Source: Akkermansia muciniphila (GTDB lineage Bacteria; Verrucomicrobiota; Verrucomicrobiia; Verrucomicrobiales; DEV007). Taken from it: a stretch of 35,286 bases of DNA. Both the position numbers and the translations under genes were made by a program. The stretch is from positions 1 to 35,286 of the forward strand of contig CAMCXS010000060.1 in NCBI GenBank assembly GCA_945883495.1, written 5' to 3'. Below, piece by piece: positions 788-10,193 of the stretch (its first letter is position 1; the number at the start of each line of letters is the position of its first letter). Under the pieces are notes generated by a model. It did not search any database. It worked only from the letters and a program-made list of their open reading frames with translations, and was not told where the DNA came from.

Positions 788-2740
788 CTACCGTCCCGCT
801 CGCTGTCGAACAAACTCCAAAAGCAATGGCAAAGCAGGCTCGGCCATTTTGCCGTGGTCAAAGCCGCCCAATTCTTTGAAGGTGAGGTCGCGGTGACCAT
901 TGAGCTTCAGCATCCGCCAGAAATACGCGTTCTCCTCATAGCGGCCCGCCATTTCCAATTCGCGATCCCCCGTGATCAACAAAATGGGCGGCGCATCCCC
1001 CCGCACATGATATAAGGGCGCAAACTCGTCCGCCAACGGTTGGTTTTGCCCGATCCCGCGCTCTTTGCGAATGGCGAAATGGGTGATCGATTGCGTGCTC
1101 AAGGGAATCAACCCCGCGATCCGGTCCGCATCGATCCCGTGCTTGCCGAGCCACTGCTTGTCCAGGCCGATCATCGCGCTCAAATAGGCACCGGCGGAAT
1201 GCCCGCTGACGAAGATCTTGCCGGCGGAGCCGCCCAGTTCCTCCATGTGCGCGAACGTCCAGGCCACCGCCGCCGCCGCGTCTTCGAGGAACGCCGGGGA
1301 TTTGTGATCGGGCGTCAGCCGGTAATTGACCGCCACCACGGCGATGCCTTGACGGCGCAAGGGAAGCGGAATCGATCGATTTCCTTTGCTCAATCCACCG
1401 CCGTGAAACCAGATCACCGTGGGGAACGCTTGGCGCCGCGCCGGATAGTAGACATCCAAACGGCAGCGAGCCTCTCCCTCCCGATATGCGATCTCCGTCT
1501 TGAGCCGATATTCGGGATCCTTCTCCGCTGGCGCCTCCGCGAACGCGGCCGGGCCGTCCTCAACGTTCGCCCGCACCGCGGCCAGGATGGTTGCGGCATC
1601 GGCCGTATTCCCCGCAAAGAGCGATCCCGCCGCACGATCCAGCTCCGCCTTGGAGCCAGCGCGCTTGCGCAGCTCATATAGTTCCTGGGGCAACCGCAGA
1701 TCCGATGCTGCATAGCGGCCAGCCGGGCGGCTCTTCTGCAACGCTTCTAAGTAGCGATATCCGTTGTTCCAAGCCGGCTCAATCACGGTTCCTTCGCCGT
1801 AATCATTCCAGGTCGCGATCTGCACCACCTTTGACTTTCCCTTGAGGGCGCGGTCCAGAGTCTCCGCAAACGTCTTCCCTTCCCTGTCATCAATATACCC
1901 GTAGCTGTCATGCAGCTTCGCCTGCTTGTAGATATCGACAAATCCGGGAAACACCGCCGCCACGGCGTCCGGGTGTCCGGCATCGATGAGATCGAGCTCC
2001 TTGCGCCAGGCTTCGGGACCGACGGTCTTTCCGCCAGAGACTGGGACCCAGGCGAACACGCCATCCATCGCGGTTTCTTTGGCGAGGTGCGCCAAGCCAT
2101 GGATTCGCGGCTTGGAGGCGAGAGCTGCGCGGACTTCCGTCCATTGTTCCCGCTTGAGAGATTGCGGACCGAACACGAGAAGCAGCGGACGGCCCTCCAC
2201 GCTTACATAACTCGGATCGGCGAACCAGTTTTCCTCAGCCCATCGCAGATCCTGAGTCGCCTGCTCAACCGCATCCGCCTCGGCGAGCTTCTTTCCGCGA
2301 ACCATTTGCCCGAGCGCTTGATCTTCATAGCAAATCGCGAAGCGCAATCCCGCGCGCTTGATTTGCGCGACGATCTTCCGGGTGTTCGCATGGTTTTGGG
2401 CATAATCATTGAAGTCCGCGATGCCATACCAATCGATGACGATGCCATCCAAGCCCGCGAACTTCATCTGCAACACCTGACATTCCAAGGCATCCGGATC
2501 CCCGGAATCATAGAGACCGATCAATGGATAATCGTGCGACGCCGCCTCCCGCTTTCCCTCCCAGCGGATCCGCTCCGGATCGAAGTGCTCCATGGTCCAA
2601 TGCCAGCCCCAGCGCCCGCTCACATCCTTCGAGCCATACCACGGCATATAGTGAGCGAGCACCAGCTTTTCCGGCTCGGCGGCCGCCAGGGTTGCGACCA
2701 GCCAACCAGCCGCGGCCAGAAAACGAACGAGGGGTTGCAT
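788..2740 (-). CDS. Secreted GH99-like glycosidase fused to an alpha/beta-hydrolase (esterase)
   Basis: This 650-residue protein begins with a signal peptide (about residues 1-21, cut near LAAAEP). Residues ~25-340 resemble the GH99-like/WbsX glycosidase family: the first strand carries HYMPWYG (30-36), followed by IDWYG (102-106) and WNDYGEGTVIEP (311-322). D313 and E316 sit where GH99 enzymes place their catalytic acid pair. Residues ~420-650 form an alpha/beta-hydrolase of the carbohydrate-esterase/BD-FAE type: oxyanion motif HGGG (446-449), nucleophile motif GHSAG with S515, acid D592 in LLITGD and base H629 in GGFDHG. The likely role is cutting an exported or environmental polysaccharide and removing acyl groups from it. 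The substrate cannot be read from the sequence. It lies 9 bp downstream of the MoeB-like gene on the same strand. Confidence 0.85.
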   Translation of the reverse strand: MQPLVRFLAAAGWLVATLAAAEPEKLVLAHYMPWYGSKDVSGRWGWHWTMEHFDPERIRWEGKREAASHDYPLIGLYDSGDPDALECQVLQMKFAGLDGIVIDWYGIADFNDYAQNHANTRKIVAQIKRAGLRFAICYEDQALGQMVRGKKLAEADAVEQATQDLRWAEENWFADPSYVSVEGRPLLLVFGPQSLKREQWTEVRAALASKPRIHGLAHLAKETAMDGVFAWVPVSGGKTVGPEAWRKELDLIDAGHPDAVAAVFPGFVDIYKQAKLHDSYGYIDDREGKTFAETLDRALKGKSKVVQIATWNDYGEGTVIEPAWNNGYRYLEALQKSRPAGRYAASDLRLPQELYELRKRAGSKAELDRAAGSLFAGNTADAATILAAVRANVEDGPAAFAEAPAEKDPEYRLKTEIAYREGEARCRLDVYYPARRQAFPTVIWFHGGGLSKGNRSIPLPLRRQGIAVVAVNYRLTPDHKSPAFLEDAAAAVAWTFAHMEELGGSAGKIFVSGHSAGAYLSAMIGLDKQWLGKHGIDADRIAGLIPLSTQSITHFAIRKERGIGQNQPLADEFAPLYHVRGDAPPILLITGDRELEMAGRYEENAYFWRMLKLNGHRDLTFKELGGFDHGKMAEPALPLLLEFVRQRAGR

Positions 2741-2749
2741 CCCCCTGAT

Positions 2750-3922
2750 TCAATACCGTTTCACCGACGGATCAATCTCCGCCCACGCGAGAATGCCGCC
2801 TTTCACGTTGCGCACCCGCGTCCAGCCTGCGTCTTGGAGCATCTTCACGGCCTTCGCACTGCGACCGCCGGATTTGCAATGCACCGCCACGTCGCGATCC
2901 CGCGGCACCTCGCTCATCCGCTCGCCAAGCTGGCCCAGCGGAATCAACACGGCTCCCGGAATCCGGCAGATTTCCACTTCGAACGGTTCGCGGACATCGA
3001 CCAAGTGAATGTCACCCGCCTCGAGCCGGGCTCGCAAATCTTCCACGCTCAGCTCCTCACCCGGAGCCTCCGGTTTGGGCACGCCGCCGCAGAACTGCTC
3101 GTAGTCAATCAGCTCGCGCACCGTCGGATCCGCCCCGCACACTGGGCATTCCGGATCCCGTCGCAGCTTGATCTCCCGGAAGCGGAAACCCAGCGCATCG
3201 AAATGCACGAGACGGCCTACGAGCGGCTCACCAATCCCCAAGATCAGCTTGATGGCCTCCAGCGCCTGCAATGTGCCGACGATCCCCGGCAATACCCCAA
3301 GAACTCCGCCTTCCGCGCAGCTCGGCACCGTCCCCGGCTCCGGCGGCACCGGGAAAAGGCAACGGTAACACGGCCCGCCCAAATAGGGCGCGAAGACCGA
3401 ACATTGCCCCTCAAAGCGGAAGATGGATCCATACACATTCGGCTTACCCAACAGCACCGCCAAATCGTTGCTTAAATAGCGCGTCGCGAAGTTGTCCGTC
3501 CCATCCAAAATCACATCATACGGCCGCGCGATTTCCATCGCATTCGCGCTCGTCAACCGCGTCTCGTGCCGCACGATTTCCACCCCGGGATTGATGTCAC
3601 GCAACGTCTCCACCGCCGAATCGAGCTTGGGCCGGCCCAGATCGTTTTCCCCGTGGAGAATTTGCCGCTGCAAGTTCGAGCGATCCACTTGGTCAAACTC
3701 CACCAAGCCGAGCTTCCCAATCCCCGCCGCCGCCAAATACATCGTCGCCGGACTGCCCAACCCGCCGAGGCCGATGCAAAGCACGGAAGCGGCCCGCAAC
3801 CTGCGCTGTCCTTCGATGCCGACTTCGGGGATCGTGATGTGGCGGGCGTAGCGTTCCAAATCGGACGATTCAAGGGAAACGCCAGCCTCGCGTGAAGGAT
3901 CGATGAGCGATGGAAACGGCAT
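2750..3922 (-). CDS. moeB: MoeB/ThiF-type adenylyltransferase with C-terminal rhodanese domain
   Basis: The 390-residue protein has an E1-like ThiF/MoeB domain (about 20-275) and a rhodanese domain (about 290-390). Visible signatures are RYARHI (25-30), the ATP-binding loop GLGGLGS (51-57), DGTDNF (140-145), the zinc cysteine pairs C185/C188 and C259/C262, and the conserved C202. The rhodanese loop CKSGGRS places its persulfide cysteine at C349. Proteins of this layout (MoeB/MoeZ/ThiF) adenylate the C-terminal Gly-Gly of a sulfur carrier such as MoaD or ThiS and pass sulfur to it, for molybdopterin, thiamine or thio-modified products. No carrier protein or cofactor genes are nearby, so the pathway stays open. 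It is probably co-transcribed with the 788-2740 gene although the functions look unrelated. Confidence 0.92.
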   Translation of the reverse strand: MPFPSLIDPSREAGVSLESSDLERYARHITIPEVGIEGQRRLRAASVLCIGLGGLGSPATMYLAAAGIGKLGLVEFDQVDRSNLQRQILHGENDLGRPKLDSAVETLRDINPGVEIVRHETRLTSANAMEIARPYDVILDGTDNFATRYLSNDLAVLLGKPNVYGSIFRFEGQCSVFAPYLGGPCYRCLFPVPPEPGTVPSCAEGGVLGVLPGIVGTLQALEAIKLILGIGEPLVGRLVHFDALGFRFREIKLRRDPECPVCGADPTVRELIDYEQFCGGVPKPEAPGEELSVEDLRARLEAGDIHLVDVREPFEVEICRIPGAVLIPLGQLGERMSEVPRDRDVAVHCKSGGRSAKAVKMLQDAGWTRVRNVKGGILAWAEIDPSVKRY

Positions 3923-3926
3923 GGAA

Positions 3927-3942
3927 CGGTAGCAAACTACCG
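3927..3942. other. Perfect 6-bp stem hairpin upstream of moeB
   Basis: CGGTAG (3927-3932), loop CAAA, CTACCG (3937-3942). It sits 5 bp upstream of the moeB start and downstream of the minus-strand hydrolase gene. It could act in the moeB leader or contribute to ending the upstream transcript. There is no T tract. Confidence 0.5.
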
Positions 3943-3948
3943 GAATCC

Positions 3949-3982
3949 GCCCGGCGCAAGAGGTGGCGGGGCAAAGCCGGGC
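3949..3982 (-). terminator. Possible terminator after the serine hydrolase gene
   Basis: A perfect 7-bp inverted repeat, GCCCGGC (3949-3955) and GCCGGGC (3976-3982), lies 5 bases beyond the stop of the 3988-5553 gene. The loop is 20 bases and no T run follows, so intrinsic termination is uncertain. Confidence 0.35.
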
Positions 3983-3987
3983 TTCGG

Positions 3988-5553
3988 CTACGCCATGATT
4001 CTCCCACGCAGCGGCGCGCGCGAGTCTTTGGCCGCCGGATTCATGCCCGTGATGCTGTTGAGAAAGGTCAGCGTCACCGTCTCCCCGGTTTCATCAAATA
4101 CGCAGGTCACGGTGTCACGATGCGGCGTTTCGTAATATCGCAGACTGATAGTCAACGTCCGTTCGTCCGTCCAGGCCGCCGCGGCGGCGATCTTGGATTT
4201 CCCCATCTCGGGTGACCGGCCACCCGAGATGAGCCGCGGAGGAGTGCCCGGAATGGCGGCCTCGCCCCGGAGCCACTTGCCCCACCCGCAGGCGATCGAC
4301 TCGCCGCCTACGGTAAACAGGCAGCGCTCCGGGGCGAACGCGAAGGAAACGGCGTCCCGTCCGAGATCATTCGGCTCCAGACGATACGTCCGTTGCGACG
4401 CCAGCGCGGCCGGCGTGGCGGCCGTTCCGGAGGGCAGCGGAACTTGAAGTTTGGGAATCACGGAAGCCTGCCATTTGGCATCTGACTTCTTGCCGATGGC
4501 CGGGAGCAAGTGCCGCCAGACCAAATCGAGCTGGCCCTGCATGTTCTTGTTTTCGCTCGTCATCACGATCACGGCGTCTTCTTTGGGAAGCACGATCGTG
4601 AATTGGCCAAAAGCGCCGTCCCCCCGGAAGCCGCCATGCTGGCAACGCCAGAACTGGTAGCCATAACCTTGCAGCCAGTCATTCTGGGCCTTGGGGCGGT
4701 CCGGCTTATCCTCGCCTGGCTGCTGAATGTGAAAGCGGGTCGCTTCTTCGATCCAAGATTCCGGGAGAAGTTGCGCGCCGTTCCATTTCCCTTTCTGGAG
4801 GAGAAGTTGTCCGAACTTGGCGAGCCCTTCGGTCTTAATGCTCAGGCCCCAACCGCCGGTGTTGATCCCGCGAGGGCAGGTCTCCCATCGCATCCCGCGG
4901 ATCCCGAGCGGTTCAAAAAGACGCGGGGTGAGGTAATCCAAAACCGTCTGCCCGGTGATCCGCTGCACGATGGCGGAACACAGATAGGTCGCCGCGCTGT
5001 TGTAGAGAAATTGCGTCCCGGGCCGGTGCGCGATGGGCTGCGCAAGAAAGGTCCGAACCCAATTCTCCGATTTCACACAGGTCTGCGTCGGCTCCTTTTC
5101 ATTCCCGGTGGACATTGTGAGCAAGTCCCGCACCCGCATCGCTCCCAGGTTCTCCGTCACTTGCCAAGGCACGTCGTTTGGGAAGAACGAGACCACCCGG
5201 TCATCCACCTTGAGCCTCCGCTCACTGACGGCAAAGCCCACCGCCGCGGAGGTGAAGCTCTTGCTCATCGAATACATGGAGTGGACAAAGTCCGGACCAT
5301 AGGGTTCCCACCAGCCCTCGGCGATGACCCGGCCGTGCCGCAGCATCATGAAGCTGTGCAGCTCAAACTGGGCCTGCTCCACCGCATCGAGAAACGCAAC
5401 GATGTCTTCCGGGGCGACTCCCTCCGCTTCCGGGGTGCTCCGGGGCAACGCGCCCTCCGGCGCCAAAGCGTGGACGGCGGCAACGCCCGGCAGCCCCAGG
5501 GCAAGGGTCGAATAACCGGCGTGTCGAAGAAAAAAGCGGCGTGAAGCGGGCAT
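3988..5553 (-). CDS. Exported beta-lactamase-family serine hydrolase
   Basis: From the chosen start the protein is 521 residues. The frame stays open to 5724, but the start at 5553 gives a clean export signal: MPASRRFFLRH with a twin-arginine-like pair, then a hydrophobic stretch ending near residue 30. The domain is the penicillin-binding/class C beta-lactamase fold. The nucleophile motif S-M-S-K is at 95-98 (SxxK), the second motif is in FLYNSAATYL, and a G-rich GDGAFGQ motif stands in for the third. The family includes 6-aminohexanoate-dimer hydrolases and esterases, and the substrate cannot be assigned. It is divergent from the cvfB-like gene with ~121 bp between starts, in which I see no clear promoter. 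Starting further upstream would overlap that gene. Confidence 0.88.
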   Translation of the reverse strand: MPASRRFFLRHAGYSTLALGLPGVAAVHALAPEGALPRSTPEAEGVAPEDIVAFLDAVEQAQFELHSFMMLRHGRVIAEGWWEPYGPDFVHSMYSMSKSFTSAAVGFAVSERRLKVDDRVVSFFPNDVPWQVTENLGAMRVRDLLTMSTGNEKEPTQTCVKSENWVRTFLAQPIAHRPGTQFLYNSAATYLCSAIVQRITGQTVLDYLTPRLFEPLGIRGMRWETCPRGINTGGWGLSIKTEGLAKFGQLLLQKGKWNGAQLLPESWIEEATRFHIQQPGEDKPDRPKAQNDWLQGYGYQFWRCQHGGFRGDGAFGQFTIVLPKEDAVIVMTSENKNMQGQLDLVWRHLLPAIGKKSDAKWQASVIPKLQVPLPSGTAATPAALASQRTYRLEPNDLGRDAVSFAFAPERCLFTVGGESIACGWGKWLRGEAAIPGTPPRLISGGRSPEMGKSKIAAAAAWTDERTLTISLRYYETPHRDTVTCVFDETGETVTLTFLNSITGMNPAAKDSRAPLRGRIMA

Positions 5554-5674
5554 CGCGAAAAAGGCTACAACGCCACGGAGCCGCTCCGCAACCCGCGAAT
5601 CCGCCACGATGAACTCGCGGAAATCCCCTTCCCTTCCCCGGCAGGTGGGCGAACTTCCCGCTTCTGCTTCGATC

Positions 5675-6517
5675 ATGTCGCTTCTTGGAACACGCTCGTC
5701 CCTCGCCATCGTCCGCCAGTCCACGCCCGGGTCCTACCTCGATGGCGGCAAATTAGGCGAAATTCTGCTGCCAGGACGCCTGGTGCCCGCCGGCGCTCAA
5801 CCCGGGGACACCGTTGACGTCTTCGTCTACCGCGATTCCGAGGACCGGCTCGTGGCCACCACGCAAACGCCGCTGGCGATGGTGGGAGAGGTCGCCTATC
5901 TCCGGGTGCTTTCTCATCACCATTCCATGGGCGCCTTTCTCGACTGGGGATTGGAAAAGGATCTCCTCCTCCCGCGCCGCGAGTACGCCGGTGGGGTTCA
6001 CCCCGGAGGTTTCGCCTTGGTTTTCGTGACCATCGACGAACGCTCCAACCGCATCGTCGCCACCTGCCGCCTCAACCGCCACCTGAACCTCAGCGCGCCT
6101 ACCTATGGAAAAGGTCAGGCAGTGCAGTTGATCGTCGAGAGCGAAACTCCGTTGGGCTACCGGGTCGTCGTCAATCACGCCCACCTCGGCCTTCTCTACC
6201 ACACGGAACTCGCCGGACCGCTCACGATCGGACAATCGCTCGACGGTTTCGTCCGCACGGTGCGCGTGGATGGGAAAATCGACGTCGGTCTCGACCCCGC
6301 CGGCCCGGACCGGATCCTCCCGTTCTCCGAGCAGATTCTCCGCGCGTTGGAAAAGGCGGGCGGCCACCTGCCGTATCACGATGGCTCGACGCCAGAGTCG
6401 ATCCGTAACGCGTTTGGGATGAGCAAAAAGGCGTTCAAGCAAGCCATTGGTGGTCTTTTCCGCCAGCGCCTGATCGTGATCGAGCCCGACGGCATCCGCT
6501 TGGTCAACATCCCCTGA
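5675..6517 (+). CDS. cvfB: S1-domain RNA-binding protein, CvfB/YitL family
   Basis: The 280-residue product from the ATG at 5675 matches the usual length and opening of CvfB/YitL proteins: a short beta strand then PGSYLDGGKLGEILLPGR. The frame extends 22 codons further upstream, but that part is not family-like. Order: N-terminal S1-like domains (about 1-70 and 70-140, with GAFLDWGLEKDLLLP), a third S1-like barrel (about 145-215), then a winged-helix-like C terminus with FGMSKKAFKQAIGGLFRQ and LVNIP. In Firmicutes the family affects virulence-factor expression and binds RNA. Here it is presumably an RNA-binding regulator. The gene stands alone, divergent from the serine hydrolase. Confidence 0.9.
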   Translation: MSLLGTRSSLAIVRQSTPGSYLDGGKLGEILLPGRLVPAGAQPGDTVDVFVYRDSEDRLVATTQTPLAMVGEVAYLRVLSHHHSMGAFLDWGLEKDLLLPRREYAGGVHPGGFALVFVTIDERSNRIVATCRLNRHLNLSAPTYGKGQAVQLIVESETPLGYRVVVNHAHLGLLYHTELAGPLTIGQSLDGFVRTVRVDGKIDVGLDPAGPDRILPFSEQILRALEKAGGHLPYHDGSTPESIRNAFGMSKKAFKQAIGGLFRQRLIVIEPDGIRLVNIP

Positions 6518-6534
6518 TCCAGCGCTCGCCGCGA

Positions 6535-6552
6535 CATGACTCTTCAGTCATG
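6535..6552. other. Perfect 7-bp hairpin after cvfB
   Basis: CATGACT (6535-6541), loop CTTC, AGTCATG (6546-6552), 18 bases after the cvfB stop. The tetraloop hairpin is stable, but no T tract follows. It may be a processing site or a weak terminator. Confidence 0.45.
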
Positions 6553-6631
6553 ACAGCCGCGGATGTGCTGCTGTTCCTGCCAGGCTTCCGGTGCCAGGTT
6601 CCTGACGAAACCTGTTGCTTGAAACCGAACC

Positions 6632-8206
6632 ATGAACTTCTCATTCCCTTTATTTTTCCCGGATCACCATCGTACTCCCGCACCGGCTGCCCCGCCGGAT
6701 CCCGGCCACGAAATGTTCCGCGTCGATGTCCGCGGACTCCGCCGCAAGTTTGCGCATCGGCCCAAGAGTTTCCTCGTTCACGAGCTGTATCAAAACGCTG
6801 TCGATGAGGATGTCACGATGGTGCGGATGACCCTGGAACGCATCGCCGCGGAAACCAAAGCGGAGGCGGCCCCGGACGCGCCCGTCTTGGTCCGATTGGT
6901 CGTCGAAGACGACAGCCCCGAGGGGTTCAAAGACCTCAGCCACTCCTACACGATGTATGCCGACAGCTCCAAGCTCGACAACCCGGAACAACGCGGGATC
7001 TGGAACCTGGGCGAAAAGCTCGTGCTCGCGTTCTGCGAGGAAGCCAGGATTACCACGACGAAGGGAACGGTGCGCTTCCGCGACGGCCGCCGCTTCCATG
7101 AAGACGTGCGCAGCGAGCGTGGCACCACGTTTGAAGGGACGTTGTGGATGCGCCCGGCGGAACTCGAGGAATGCGCCAGCGGCGTCGGCCAACTCATTCC
7201 TCCGGGGGACATCGCGGTGTTTTTCAACGGCGTCCGCCTCGTCGTGCCGCCATTCCTTCACGAGTTCACCACCACCTTGCCCACCACGTTGGGCGACGGC
7301 GAGGGCGCGATCCGCCGCACCCGCCGCAAAACGGCCGTCCGCATCTACGAACCGCTCAACGGAGGACCCGCGATGATCTTCGAAATGGGCATCCCCGTCG
7401 TTGAGACCGGGGACAAGTGGCACTACGACGTCCAACAACGCGTCCCGCTCAACATGCAACGCGACAACGTAACCCCAGCGTATCTCCAAGAACTGCGGGT
7501 CGCCGTCTTCAATCATTGCCATCACTTGCTCGGTGAAGACGACGTGAAATCCGATTGGTCGCGAGCCGCCAGCAATGACAAGCGCTGCGCCCCGGAAGCA
7601 ATCACCCGGGCCCTCGACCTCCGCTTCGGCACCAAACGCGTATCCTACGATGTCCGGGATCCCGAGGCCAACAAGAAGGCGATGGCGGAAGGTTACACGG
7701 TCGTCCACGGCGGCGCGATGTCGAAGACGGAATGGGCCAACGCCCGCCAGGCCCAAGCCATCCAACCCGCCGGCAAAGTGACCCCGAGCAATTGGCCCGA
7801 ACCCGCCGCCATGCCCGTGAAGGAAGGGGAAGCGCCGTTCCAAGTCTCTCCGGCGATGCAAGCGGTCGAGGCCTACGTCCACCGGATCGCCGCCGGTCTG
7901 ATCGATCACGACGTCAACGTCCGCTTCGTCTCGAAGCCCGACTGGCCGGTTCTGGCTACCTTTGGACGAGAGAGCGCGGAGCTCACCTTCAACGCCGGGA
8001 CCCTCGGGGAGAGATTCTTCGCGGATCGAACTTGGGCAGGTTTTCAGGAGATCAACGAACTGATCCTCCACGAGTTCGCCCACGAATACGCGTCCGACCA
8101 CTTCACCCGGGAGTTTTATGACAGCGTCGGCCGGATTGGAGCCCGCCTCGTCAATCTAGGCTTGCAAAGCCCTGGGTTGTTCGCCGGGATGGTAACGGCG
8201 AGGTGA
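6632..8206 (+). CDS. GHKL-type ATPase-like protein with C-terminal zincin motif
   Basis: The product is 524 residues. An N-terminal region (about 28-250) looks like a GHKL (Hsp90/MutL/histidine kinase) nucleotide-binding fold. It has an N-box-like HELYQNAVDE with E51, N55 and D58, a G1-like VEDDSPEGF (91-99) and a G2-like RGIWNLGEKLVLAF (121-134). The middle (about 255-440) is not recognisable. The C-terminal part carries LILHEFAHEYASDHF: H480, E481, H484 and H490 fit HExxHxxAxxH, close to the metzincin-type HExxHxxGxxH zinc site. There is no signal peptide, so it is probably cytoplasmic. It is monocistronic in appearance. ATG 6713 (MFRVDVRG) is a possible alternative start because the first 27 residues are proline-rich and unlike a domain. 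The zinc site and ATP site are read from motifs only, and I cannot assign a cellular role. Confidence 0.7.
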   Translation: MNFSFPLFFPDHHRTPAPAAPPDPGHEMFRVDVRGLRRKFAHRPKSFLVHELYQNAVDEDVTMVRMTLERIAAETKAEAAPDAPVLVRLVVEDDSPEGFKDLSHSYTMYADSSKLDNPEQRGIWNLGEKLVLAFCEEARITTTKGTVRFRDGRRFHEDVRSERGTTFEGTLWMRPAELEECASGVGQLIPPGDIAVFFNGVRLVVPPFLHEFTTTLPTTLGDGEGAIRRTRRKTAVRIYEPLNGGPAMIFEMGIPVVETGDKWHYDVQQRVPLNMQRDNVTPAYLQELRVAVFNHCHHLLGEDDVKSDWSRAASNDKRCAPEAITRALDLRFGTKRVSYDVRDPEANKKAMAEGYTVVHGGAMSKTEWANARQAQAIQPAGKVTPSNWPEPAAMPVKEGEAPFQVSPAMQAVEAYVHRIAAGLIDHDVNVRFVSKPDWPVLATFGRESAELTFNAGTLGERFFADRTWAGFQEINELILHEFAHEYASDHFTREFYDSVGRIGARLVNLGLQSPGLFAGMVTAR

Positions 8207-8270
8207 TGAGGCTTCCACGCAATATTCCCGGCCCTGCCCTCATCCTGCGCAAGAATCCTCAAACCGAATC

Positions 8271-10193
8271 ATGAAAATGAAGCCTGTGGTTCTTCTCCTC
8301 TTTCTCACCACCGCCGCCGCCCAGTCTCAAAGCGCTCCCCGCCAACCGGATGGCCATGCCATTCTGACGATCACGGGTGAACAAAAGCAATGGCACAAGG
8401 TCACGCTCACACTGGATGGTCCCTTTGCCGCGGAGAAGGACACGCAACCGAATCCTTTCACCGACCTCGCCTTCAACGTCACCTTCACCCACGAGAGCGG
8501 CAAGCCGAACTACATCGTCCCCGGTTACTTCGCCGCGGATGGCGATGGAGCGAACACCAGCGCCGAGTCCGGCACGAAATGGCGGGCGCACCTCTCTCCC
8601 GATAAAACCGGCACCTGGAACTACCGAGTGAGCTTCACGAAAGGCAAAAACGCCGCGCTCCATGGCGGTGGCGAGGCTTTGAAGCCATTCGATGGCGTCA
8701 GCGGCTCGTTCCAGATCGTCGCGAATGACAAAACGGGCCGCGATTTCCGCTCGCAGGGCCGCTTGCAGTATGTCGGCAAGCCGTACCTACAGTTCGCTGG
8801 CTCAAAGCAATACTTCCTCAAAGCAGGCCCCGACTCGCCGGAGACGCTGCTGGCCTTCGCCGGCTTTGATGGCACCGAAGCCCACAAAGACAACGTCCCG
8901 CTTAAGACCTGGGCACCTCACGCAGGCGATTGGAAACCCGGCGATCCCACGTGGAAAGGCGGCAACGGCAAAAACCTGATCGGCGCGCTGAACTACCTCG
9001 CTAGCAAAGGCGTAAATGCCTTCTCCTTCCTGACCTACAACGCCGCGGGCGATGGCGACAATGTCTGGCCCTTCATCGAGCGAAATCAGAAGCTACACTA
9101 CGACTGCTCAAAGCTCGATCAGTGGGGCATCGTCTTCGATCACGCCACCACGCTTGGTCTCTATCTGCACTTCAAACTGCAAGAGAATGAGTCTGACGAT
9201 GAACGCCTCGGCATGAACCGCAAGCCCGGCAAACGACTCGAGGCTCTCGATGGCGGCAAACTCGGTATCGAACGCAAACTCTACTGCCGCGAACTCATCG
9301 CCCGCTTCGCTCATGCGCTCGCCCTGAACTGGAACGTCGGTGAAGAGAACACCCAGAGCACCGAAGAAGTCCGCGACATGGTGAAATACCTCCACGACAC
9401 GGATCCTTACCAGCACCACATCGTCCTCCACACCTTCCCGCCGCAACTGGACGAGGTATACCGGCCACTACTCGGAAACAAGTCACTGCTCTCCGGCGTA
9501 TCGATGCAGACGGGCTGGAAGATGTCGCACAAAAAGACTCTCCAGTGGCGCAAAGAGTCCGCAGAAGCAGGCCGCCATTGGGTAGTTGCCCACGACGAGC
9601 AGAACTCCGCCAGCCTCGGTGTGCCCCCTGACCCGGGATACAAAGGATTCAGCGGCGCGGCCTCCGAGAAAACCCCACCGAAGGGCAAAGAGGGCGAAGG
9701 CTTCATCGCCTCCGATGCCTACACCCTCCATGACGTGCGCAAACAATGTCTCTGGGGACACTTCATGGCCGGAGGCGCTGGTGTGGAATATTACTTCGGC
9801 TACAAACTACCGGCGAACGACCTCAATTGCGAAGACTTCCGCAGCCGCGACAACAGCTGGGACTACTGCCGCATCGCCCTCGACTTCTTCCGCGAACAGA
9901 ACATCCCCATCGCCGAAATGCGGAACGCCAATGCTCTCATCGGCAACACGAAGGACAATAACGACAAATACTGCCTCGCCAAGCCCGGGGAGCTTTATCT
10001 GGTCTATCTCCCGGATGGCGGCAGCACCGATCTCGATCTCTCGGACGCGCTAGGCAGCTTCACCGTGAACTGGTTCAATCCTCGTCAAGGCGGCAATCTC
10101 AACGTTTCCGTCCAACCCATCGCAGGCGGAGACAAAAGCAAGCTTACCGCCCCTGATGACAATGACTGGTTGGCGGTCATCCGGAAGAATTAG
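8271..10193 (+). CDS. Secreted DUF5060-domain glycoside-hydrolase-like protein
   Basis: The 640-residue protein starts with a signal peptide (MKMKPVVLLLFLTTAAAQS). An N-terminal DUF5060 beta-sandwich follows (about 35-125; QWHKVTLTLDGPF, PDKTGTWNYRVSF). A TIM-barrel-like catalytic region comes next (about 165-520), with FLTYNAAGDGDNVWPFI, LHFKLQENE, LNWNVGEEN and VAHDEQN. Acidic residues in NVGEEN and AHDEQN are candidates for catalysis. The last ~90 residues resemble the small C-terminal beta domain (putative collagen-binding) often attached to such proteins. DUF5060/DUF4038-like proteins occur in polysaccharide-degrading bacteria, and the substrate is not evident. The gene has its own leader and nothing follows it on this strand for 339 bp. 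Confidence 0.82.
   Translation: MKMKPVVLLLFLTTAAAQSQSAPRQPDGHAILTITGEQKQWHKVTLTLDGPFAAEKDTQPNPFTDLAFNVTFTHESGKPNYIVPGYFAADGDGANTSAESGTKWRAHLSPDKTGTWNYRVSFTKGKNAALHGGGEALKPFDGVSGSFQIVANDKTGRDFRSQGRLQYVGKPYLQFAGSKQYFLKAGPDSPETLLAFAGFDGTEAHKDNVPLKTWAPHAGDWKPGDPTWKGGNGKNLIGALNYLASKGVNAFSFLTYNAAGDGDNVWPFIERNQKLHYDCSKLDQWGIVFDHATTLGLYLHFKLQENESDDERLGMNRKPGKRLEALDGGKLGIERKLYCRELIARFAHALALNWNVGEENTQSTEEVRDMVKYLHDTDPYQHHIVLHTFPPQLDEVYRPLLGNKSLLSGVSMQTGWKMSHKKTLQWRKESAEAGRHWVVAHDEQNSASLGVPPDPGYKGFSGAASEKTPPKGKEGEGFIASDAYTLHDVRKQCLWGHFMAGGAGVEYYFGYKLPANDLNCEDFRSRDNSWDYCRIALDFFREQNIPIAEMRNANALIGNTKDNNDKYCLAKPGELYLVYLPDGGSTDLDLSDALGSFTVNWFNPRQGGNLNVSVQPIAGGDKSKLTAPDDNDWLAVIRKN

Follow-up and report, generated by a model that had tools for sequence, protein, structure and literature searches.

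A predicted GHKL ATPase joined to a predicted Wss1-like zinc-protease domain in a conserved family carried largely by environmental phages

The stretch of Akkermansia muciniphila DNA analysed here (35,286 nucleotides, contig CAMCXS010000060.1 of assembly GCA_945883495.1; hereafter the window) encodes a protein in which a GHKL-type ATPase and an HExxH zinc-protease domain, as judged from predicted folds, intact catalytic signatures and joint conservation, share a single chain. The fused architecture is well supported, and the distribution of the relatives is that of phages and mobile elements. Tentatively, as a reading that we consider possible rather than probable, we regard the gene as having been acquired horizontally and as belonging to a phage-centred family of ATP-gated, clamp-type metalloproteases that would act on DNA-bound or crosslinked protein; its DNA target is what we infer, not what we observe.

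The gene occupies positions 6632-8206 on the + strand. The frame that an earlier, sequence-only reading had assigned to it is open over 524 codons, and ELYQNAVD (residues 51-58), DDSPEGF (93-99), RGIWNLGEK (121-129) and HEFAHEYASDH (480-490) lie where that reading had placed them. The real start is probably the ATG at 6713 (M28), which would give about 497 amino acids, since the homologues start across from M28 and residues 1-26 have low pLDDT. On the same strand, folds and profiles place the GHKL (Bergerat) ATPase domain at 6713-7246 (about residues 28-205, borders approximate), with the N-box at 6782-6805, motif II at 6908-6928 and the ATP-lid motif III at 6992-7018. A predicted transducer (S5-like) domain follows at 7247-7531 (about residues 206-300), then a middle or linker region at 7532-7831 (about residues 301-400), assigned to no family, with the conserved positions D340, E345, W368, PAG 379-381 and P385. 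The C-terminal zincin domain, predicted to have a Wss1/minigluzincin-like fold, extends over 7832-8203 (about residues 401-524) and carries its zinc-site motif at 8069-8101. GC content near the gene is 0.58-0.64 and not distinctive; a promoter/terminator scan gave no signal exceeding shuffles, and no tRNA was found in the window.

Relatives were collected from IMG/VR with two patterns taken from the ATPase half, which returned 192 relatives, the best 80 of which were retained. After thinning at 80% identity, alignment A2 comprised 59 sequences including the window protein; as A2 was meant for structure prediction, the phage- and plasmid-collection loci L005-L009 were kept out of it (they are present in A1), and it is also without L041. 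Throughout A2 (59/59 each) the N-box residues E51, N55 and D58, the motif II residues D93, P96 and G98, the lid residues G122, G127 and K129, as well as G164, Q269 and R277, are invariant, and position 270 is always K or R. The same holds for the zinc-site residues H480, E481, H484 and H490, so that the conservation of the HExxH residues in homologues, on which the sequence-only reading had made its proposal depend, is complete in this alignment. The C-terminal part otherwise has a mean column identity of 31%, and only five of its columns are invariant, P385 and the four of the zinc site. A domain that drifts around a constant zinc site would most simply be a working zinc hydrolase, because the site is unchanged though the domain diverges. 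The pattern HExxHxxxxxH arises in 126 of 100,000 shuffles of the window protein; a chance motif is ruled out by this figure together with the 59/59 conservation, and the conservation is the stronger evidence. Strict spacing is unmatched in three of 86 loci: in L025 and L077 the loop of the motif is two residues longer, and the L041 ORF carries HEFAHHSVSNH in its proper frame.

The C-terminal domain, folded separately, reached a pLDDT of 90. Its top Foldseek match is yeast Wss1 (E 2.8e-3, probability 1.00), and no match fell under E 0.001. In VIA comparisons two yeast Wss1 matches, each spanning 107 residues at about 3 A, had Z 9.2 (2.9 A) and 9.0, followed by S. pombe Wss1 (8.2), selecase (7.7), jannalysin (7.4) and SPRTN (6.5). 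As an unrelated HtpG chain reached Z 7.0 and aminopeptidases 5.6-6.9, the separation of the Wss1/minigluzincin match from other gluzincins is moderate in these models. The feature that defines Wss1/SprT-type minigluzincins, HExxH with a downstream third His ligand, is found in 59/59 sequences. Pfam gives weak WLM and YgjP-like matches; since WLM (PF08325) scores 16.4 bits against a cut-off of 26, we class the domain not as a member of that family, only as working like one. The sequence-only reading had called the zinc site metzincin-like. That assignment did not survive: residue 487, where metzincins have their Gly, is a Gly in just 3/59 sequences, and any Met within 35 residues past H490 occurs in 27/59 rows, with no Met-conserved column. 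The missing Gly, the missing Met-turn and a fold nearest to Wss1 and the minigluzincins rule out a metzincin identity, and on the basis of the models the domain is of the WLM/SprT type.

The full-length AlphaFold2 model, computed from the 59-row alignment (mean pLDDT 89.3, pTM 0.81), shows a GHKL ATPase followed by a transducer; thus the Bergerat fold, whose absence would have spoken against the sequence-only reading, is predicted. Foldseek gave 22 matches at E<=0.001, every one of them to a GHKL protein, among them MORC3/MORC2, MutL, topo VI, GyrB and sacsin, with TM-scores by query length of 0.19-0.36, low because each match spans just part of the chain. VIA-align placed TRAP1 first (Z 15.8), ahead of topo VI-B (15.7) and GyrB (15.3), mostly over residues ~20-350. 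The hallmarks of the GHKL superfamily, an ExxxNxxD N-box, the Asp and Gly of motif II and a glycine-rich lid, occur in 59/59 sequences each. Pfam HATPase_c_3 matches 48/59 members, HATPase_c 31/59 and sacsin 14/59 (E<=0.01); the window protein has no Pfam GHKL match at E<=1. Q269, K/R270 and R277 form a candidate nucleotide-sensing loop of the transducer.

The claim that both parts lie in one chain stands, for both are conserved among the relatives. As the retained set was possibly biased toward full-length matches, each half was also searched alone. The ATPase half found 233 relatives, and among the 80 retained HExxH with a later His lies downstream in frame in 76; in the remaining four the motif is in another frame (L180, L213), the sequence is degenerate (L182) or the ORF leaves the contig (L188). 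The C-terminal half found 65 loci, 60 of them preceded in frame by the GHKL lid motif and four truncated by the contig start; L232, unmatched by the lid pattern, shows the N-box ELVQNSLDED. Both scans return many contigs of the IMG/VR best-80 set, so their counts are not independent samples. A chimaeric or misread ORF is ruled out, as the relatives and both half-only scans show the same fusion. Distant relatives on Picosynechococcus plasmids (22-23% identity) retain both parts, as do distant relatives on contigs assigned to many bacterial phyla and in two archaeal MAGs. At 44 genome loci the strict zinc motif was found in 30 and HExxH with a different loop before the last His in 11; it is missing from the scored ORF in three (L097, L126, L128), and near that of L126 a separate ORF bears HELAHALGDTPMEH. 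The N-box pattern matches 36 of these loci and the lid pattern 39. L182, with its degenerate sequence, and L128, a 393-aa ORF without the motif, are possible natural protease-less forms.

Judged from these sequences, the family is conserved, unnamed and carried largely by environmental phages, with scattered members on plasmids and bacterial contigs. Among the best 80 of 192 relatives, ten are on viral contigs of at least 200 kb, the longest 435 kb, and a 485-kb uncultured phage record is the sole match among 50,697 phage records. Plasmids of Methylibium (599 kb), Bosea (692 kb) and Rhodovastum (115 kb) also carry the gene; from their annotation, we read the Methylibium and Bosea copies as surrounded by phage-like genes. 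The closest relative, at 61%, belongs to a Verrucomicrobiales MAG. In 57 genomes of the window host's relatives the gene occurs once, in the window's own. A survey of 387 genomes of the phylum gave ten with matches, full length only in the window's own; the other nine are weak matches confined to short stretches of the GHKL region and were left out of the member count. The gene thus looks acquired in the window's host, and the patchy host distribution supports a phage-derived acquisition.

In the window the gene stands alone among unrelated genes, as had been noted earlier: the ten flanking ORFs scanned are ordinary chromosomal neighbours with no phage setting. They encode GH99-like/esterase, ThiF-rhodanese, beta-lactamase-like, CvfB-like S1, DUF5060, methyltransferase, LysR regulator, alanine-racemase-like and PQQ-propeller proteins; the tenth, antisense to the CvfB-like gene, had no hit. 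The ORF at 788-2740 (- strand) combines GH99/WbsX-type and alpha/beta-hydrolase esterase profiles, as expected of a fused glycosidase-esterase. In a genus-mate (G001, 81% complete) the genes of window positions 788-6517 are found in the same order at 73-86% identity, and synteny stops just upstream of the GHKL-zincin gene, within window positions 6517-8271. Neither that gene nor the one at 8271-10193 is present in the 1.96 kb past the CvfB-like gene of G001. The CvfB-like gene occurs in 17/19 relatives and the downstream gene (8271-10193) in 6/19. From this comparison of sequences, 6517-8271 is likely the boundary of acquired DNA.

For the relatives, 150 of 157 selected flanking proteins from 58 non-redundant loci were scanned against Pfam and PHROG; the ORF caller used for these flanks was our own and misses some genes. 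Pfam families included SNF2 (5), Helicase_C (5), DUF932 (4), resolvases (3), DNA polymerase A (2) and DnaB (2). Neither blastp clustering of the ORFs at the loci nor the Pfam and PHROG flank scans revealed a constant gene partner; the two largest ORF clusters are antisense shadows of the GHKL-zincin gene. In the comparison of neighbourhoods that the sequence-only reading had proposed, for phage or defence genes, phage contigs were found among the relatives, and no defence genes among the ten ORFs of the window. On Picosynechococcus plasmids (L009:7379-13850, L010:7377-12654) a distant homologue lies between DisA_N/diadenylate cyclase and CHAT-domain genes on the same strand, an arrangement that resembles a cassette for signalling or defence.

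Some phage neighbours are GHKL proteins themselves. A second GHKL-zincin family (family B, phrog_6077-like) has genes no more than 10 kb from that of the window family, at L016:8070-9386 (+), L032:7519-8898 (+), L064:4819-6126 (+), L071:12529-13968 (+), L026:3586-4947 (-) and L105:7017-8357 (-). Aligned by hhalign with the window family it gave a probability of 97.2 (E 3e-11) across 387 columns, those of the HExxH region among them, and 6/6 of these adjoining members have HExxH with a later His. In named phages (8 of 110 matching records) seven of eight family B proteins end without a zincin, as in E. coli phage 4MG; the protein of Moorella phage MTATph1, with HETLH, is the one that retains the motif. 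The phrog_6077 profile matches 14/59 relatives at E<=0.01 (best 4.1e-6), and at E<=1 no PHROG matches the window protein. The six members of family C (phrog_8203; L013:11756-13201, L014:12310-13737, L019:7241-8680, L020:12318-13757, L024:8439-9944 and L090:5816-7336, all +) seem circularly permuted in sequence, as their lid motif GQFGSGNK precedes the N-box EFxSNxID; a C-terminal EExxH replaces HExxH. Direct comparison of family C with the window family gave no link (hhalign probability 3.2); it is tied to it through family B alone (98.7).

How might such a protein work? By analogy with MutL, MORC, GyrB and Hsp90, the GHKL ATPase and transducer would dimerise and close as a clamp upon ATP binding, with the loop of Q269, K/R270 and R277 sensing the nucleotide state. 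The Wss1/SprT-like zincin would then cleave the client held by the clamp, most likely a protein bound or crosslinked to DNA; on phage DNA in replication this might be a roadblock from the host, a defence protein or a covalent adduct. Zinc binding, ATP hydrolysis, proteolysis, the DNA platform and this substrate are all properties that the window protein may share with its better-known analogues. The ATP-driven proteolysis suggested by the sequence-only reading would fit such a mechanism. MutL, MORC and topoisomerases hold DNA with the same ATPase type. A DNA-clamp protease is proposed because Wss1 and SPRTN act on DNA-bound proteins and the related ATPases hold DNA, and it is supported by catalytic signatures found in 59/59 sequences, by halves that travel together, by an N-terminal fold like that of the DNA-handling clamps MORC, MutL, topo VI and GyrB, and by SNF2 and Helicase_C being the commonest Pfam families among the 150 flanking phage proteins, with DNA polymerase A and DnaB also present. 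On the other hand, the protein clamps TRAP1 and Hsp90 match equally high, and the net charges of the transducer region (0) and the zincin region (-5) lend no help to DNA binding. The lack of a C-terminal Foldseek match below 0.001, the HtpG score, the small number of replication-type neighbours among the 150 and the want of a constant partner likewise weaken it, as does the window gene standing alone in a chromosome, outside a phage. The more specific scenario, in which the clamp is loaded onto DNA and passes bound proteins on to the Wss1-like zincin of the same chain, so that large phages strip their DNA of roadblocks, crosslinks or defence proteins, we consider doubtful.

The main rival is a clamp for protein clients, which the predicted fold permits equally: an Hsp90- or RIIA-like phage GHKL protein would capture a specific host protein for the zincin to cleave, without DNA. 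TRAP1 heads the VIA matches, RIIA proteins are among the viral fold matches (KVP40 RIIA, E 4.9e-6), and passages of a jumbo-phage survey treat RIIA as GHKL with a variable C-terminus and zincins as possible cutters of host proteins (PMC7824862). If this were true, the host target might be a defence component, cleaved in counter-defence or host takeover. We rate it as unlikely, for the C-terminal fold is closest to proteases of DNA-bound proteins, and strong conservation over many host phyla suits a general substrate better.

Improbable, too, is the defence effector that the sequence-only reading had entertained, in which the GHKL part senses infection and activates the zincin against a cell target or an invader protein, with phages and plasmids using it against rivals. 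A precedent exists in VcSduA, described in the parts of PMC12137116 consulted as a proven GHKL-nuclease defence protein; the Rhodovastum copy has HerA-SIR2 defence genes in its vicinity, and the cyanobacterial copies adjoin the cyclase-type and CHAT genes described above. PADLOC, run on three proteins, yielded weak TmtA matches in L006 and L009 only and none for the window protein at E<=1. Together with relatives mostly on phage contigs and the ordinary neighbours of the window gene, this weakens the claim and leaves the precedent in its favour.

Two further readings fare worse. A protease of DNA-damage signalling would resemble CapP, a metalloprotease that cuts the repressor CapH when activated by DNA; the GHKL kinase CapK is likewise activated by ssDNA (both from passages of PMC13373217). 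The C-terminal fold list does contain IrrE (E 0.15) and CapP (E 1.4), but with poor scores, and the flanking genes include no constant HTH or repressor neighbour, which makes this reading very improbable. We give slightly less credence to a chaperone-protease for virion assembly or maturation: passages of PMC7824862 propose such a role for a jumbo-phage MoxR-vWA pair with a fused metallopeptidase, and a few head-morphogenesis PHROGs appear among the 150 neighbours (2 each), yet helicases and other DNA-handling genes are the commonest annotated neighbours and the gene occurs alone in chromosomes too. The least credible reading, a structural zinc site or inactive protease in what would be an ATPase only, can point to the EExxH of the remote cousin family C, the lost motif of L182 and the zincin-less phrog_6077-type proteins of named phages, but Glu481, dispensable to a structural site, is invariant in a domain that otherwise drifts.

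The well-known ATP-dependent proteases rely on AAA+ unfoldases. In a conserved GHKL-protease chain, ATP and proteolysis would be coupled by another route and, if our tentative reading is true, such a chain would constitute a new class of energy-dependent protease with a GHKL clamp instead of an AAA+ ring. If it acts on DNA, large phages would bring their own crosslink or roadblock protease, and eukaryotic DNA-protein-crosslink repair would have a viral counterpart on a single chain. As the pairing recurs in phrog_6077-type proteins, GHKL-zincin would then be a module of general use among phages. The family is common on environmental phage contigs, yet it is unnamed in Pfam, NCBIfam, PHROGs and PADLOC.

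With MORC, MutL, GyrB, topo VI-B, Hsp90/TRAP1 and sacsin the window protein has motifs I-III and the predicted Bergerat fold plus transducer in common, at 9-17% sequence identity; by their titles, none of the 22 matches is a protease fusion. With Wss1/SPRTN and the archaeal minigluzincins (selecase, jannalysin, abylysin) it shares the C-terminal fold and HExxH with a third His. To our knowledge, Wss1 and SPRTN are not joined to a GHKL ATPase. According to passages of PMC7782752, they are proteases with low specificity that are activated by DNA and free it of crosslinked or tightly bound proteins. The phrog_6077-type phage GHKL proteins align with the window family by profile over nearly the full length, most of those in named phages lacking the zincin. 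RIIA is likewise a phage GHKL protein with a variable C-terminus; the BFVD match to KVP40 RIIA rests on the GHKL part (12% identity), and the BFVD RIIA matches are broad, poorly superposed alignments at 10-14% identity. The jumbo-phage survey lists SprT-like and other zincins, RIIA GHKL proteins and the MoxR-vWA-metallopeptidase pair, and its passages do not mention a GHKL-zincin fusion (PMC7824862). In PMC2292703, on bacterial MutL/MORC-like proteins, the terms 'zincin', 'peptidase' and 'protease' are absent, and a literature search of open-licence papers found no account of the fusion; no model describing it was matched in Pfam, NCBIfam (four proteins scanned), PHROGs or PADLOC. The nearest precedent is VcSduA of GHKL-Shedu defence, a GHKL ATPase-nuclease fusion in which, as proposed here, an N-terminal GHKL ATPase governs a C-terminal effector; in the passages available that effector is a PD-(D/E)xK nuclease, whereas the window protein has a predicted zinc-protease domain instead (PMC12137116). 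Both of its domains are known, and their conserved combination is, as far as we have searched, new.
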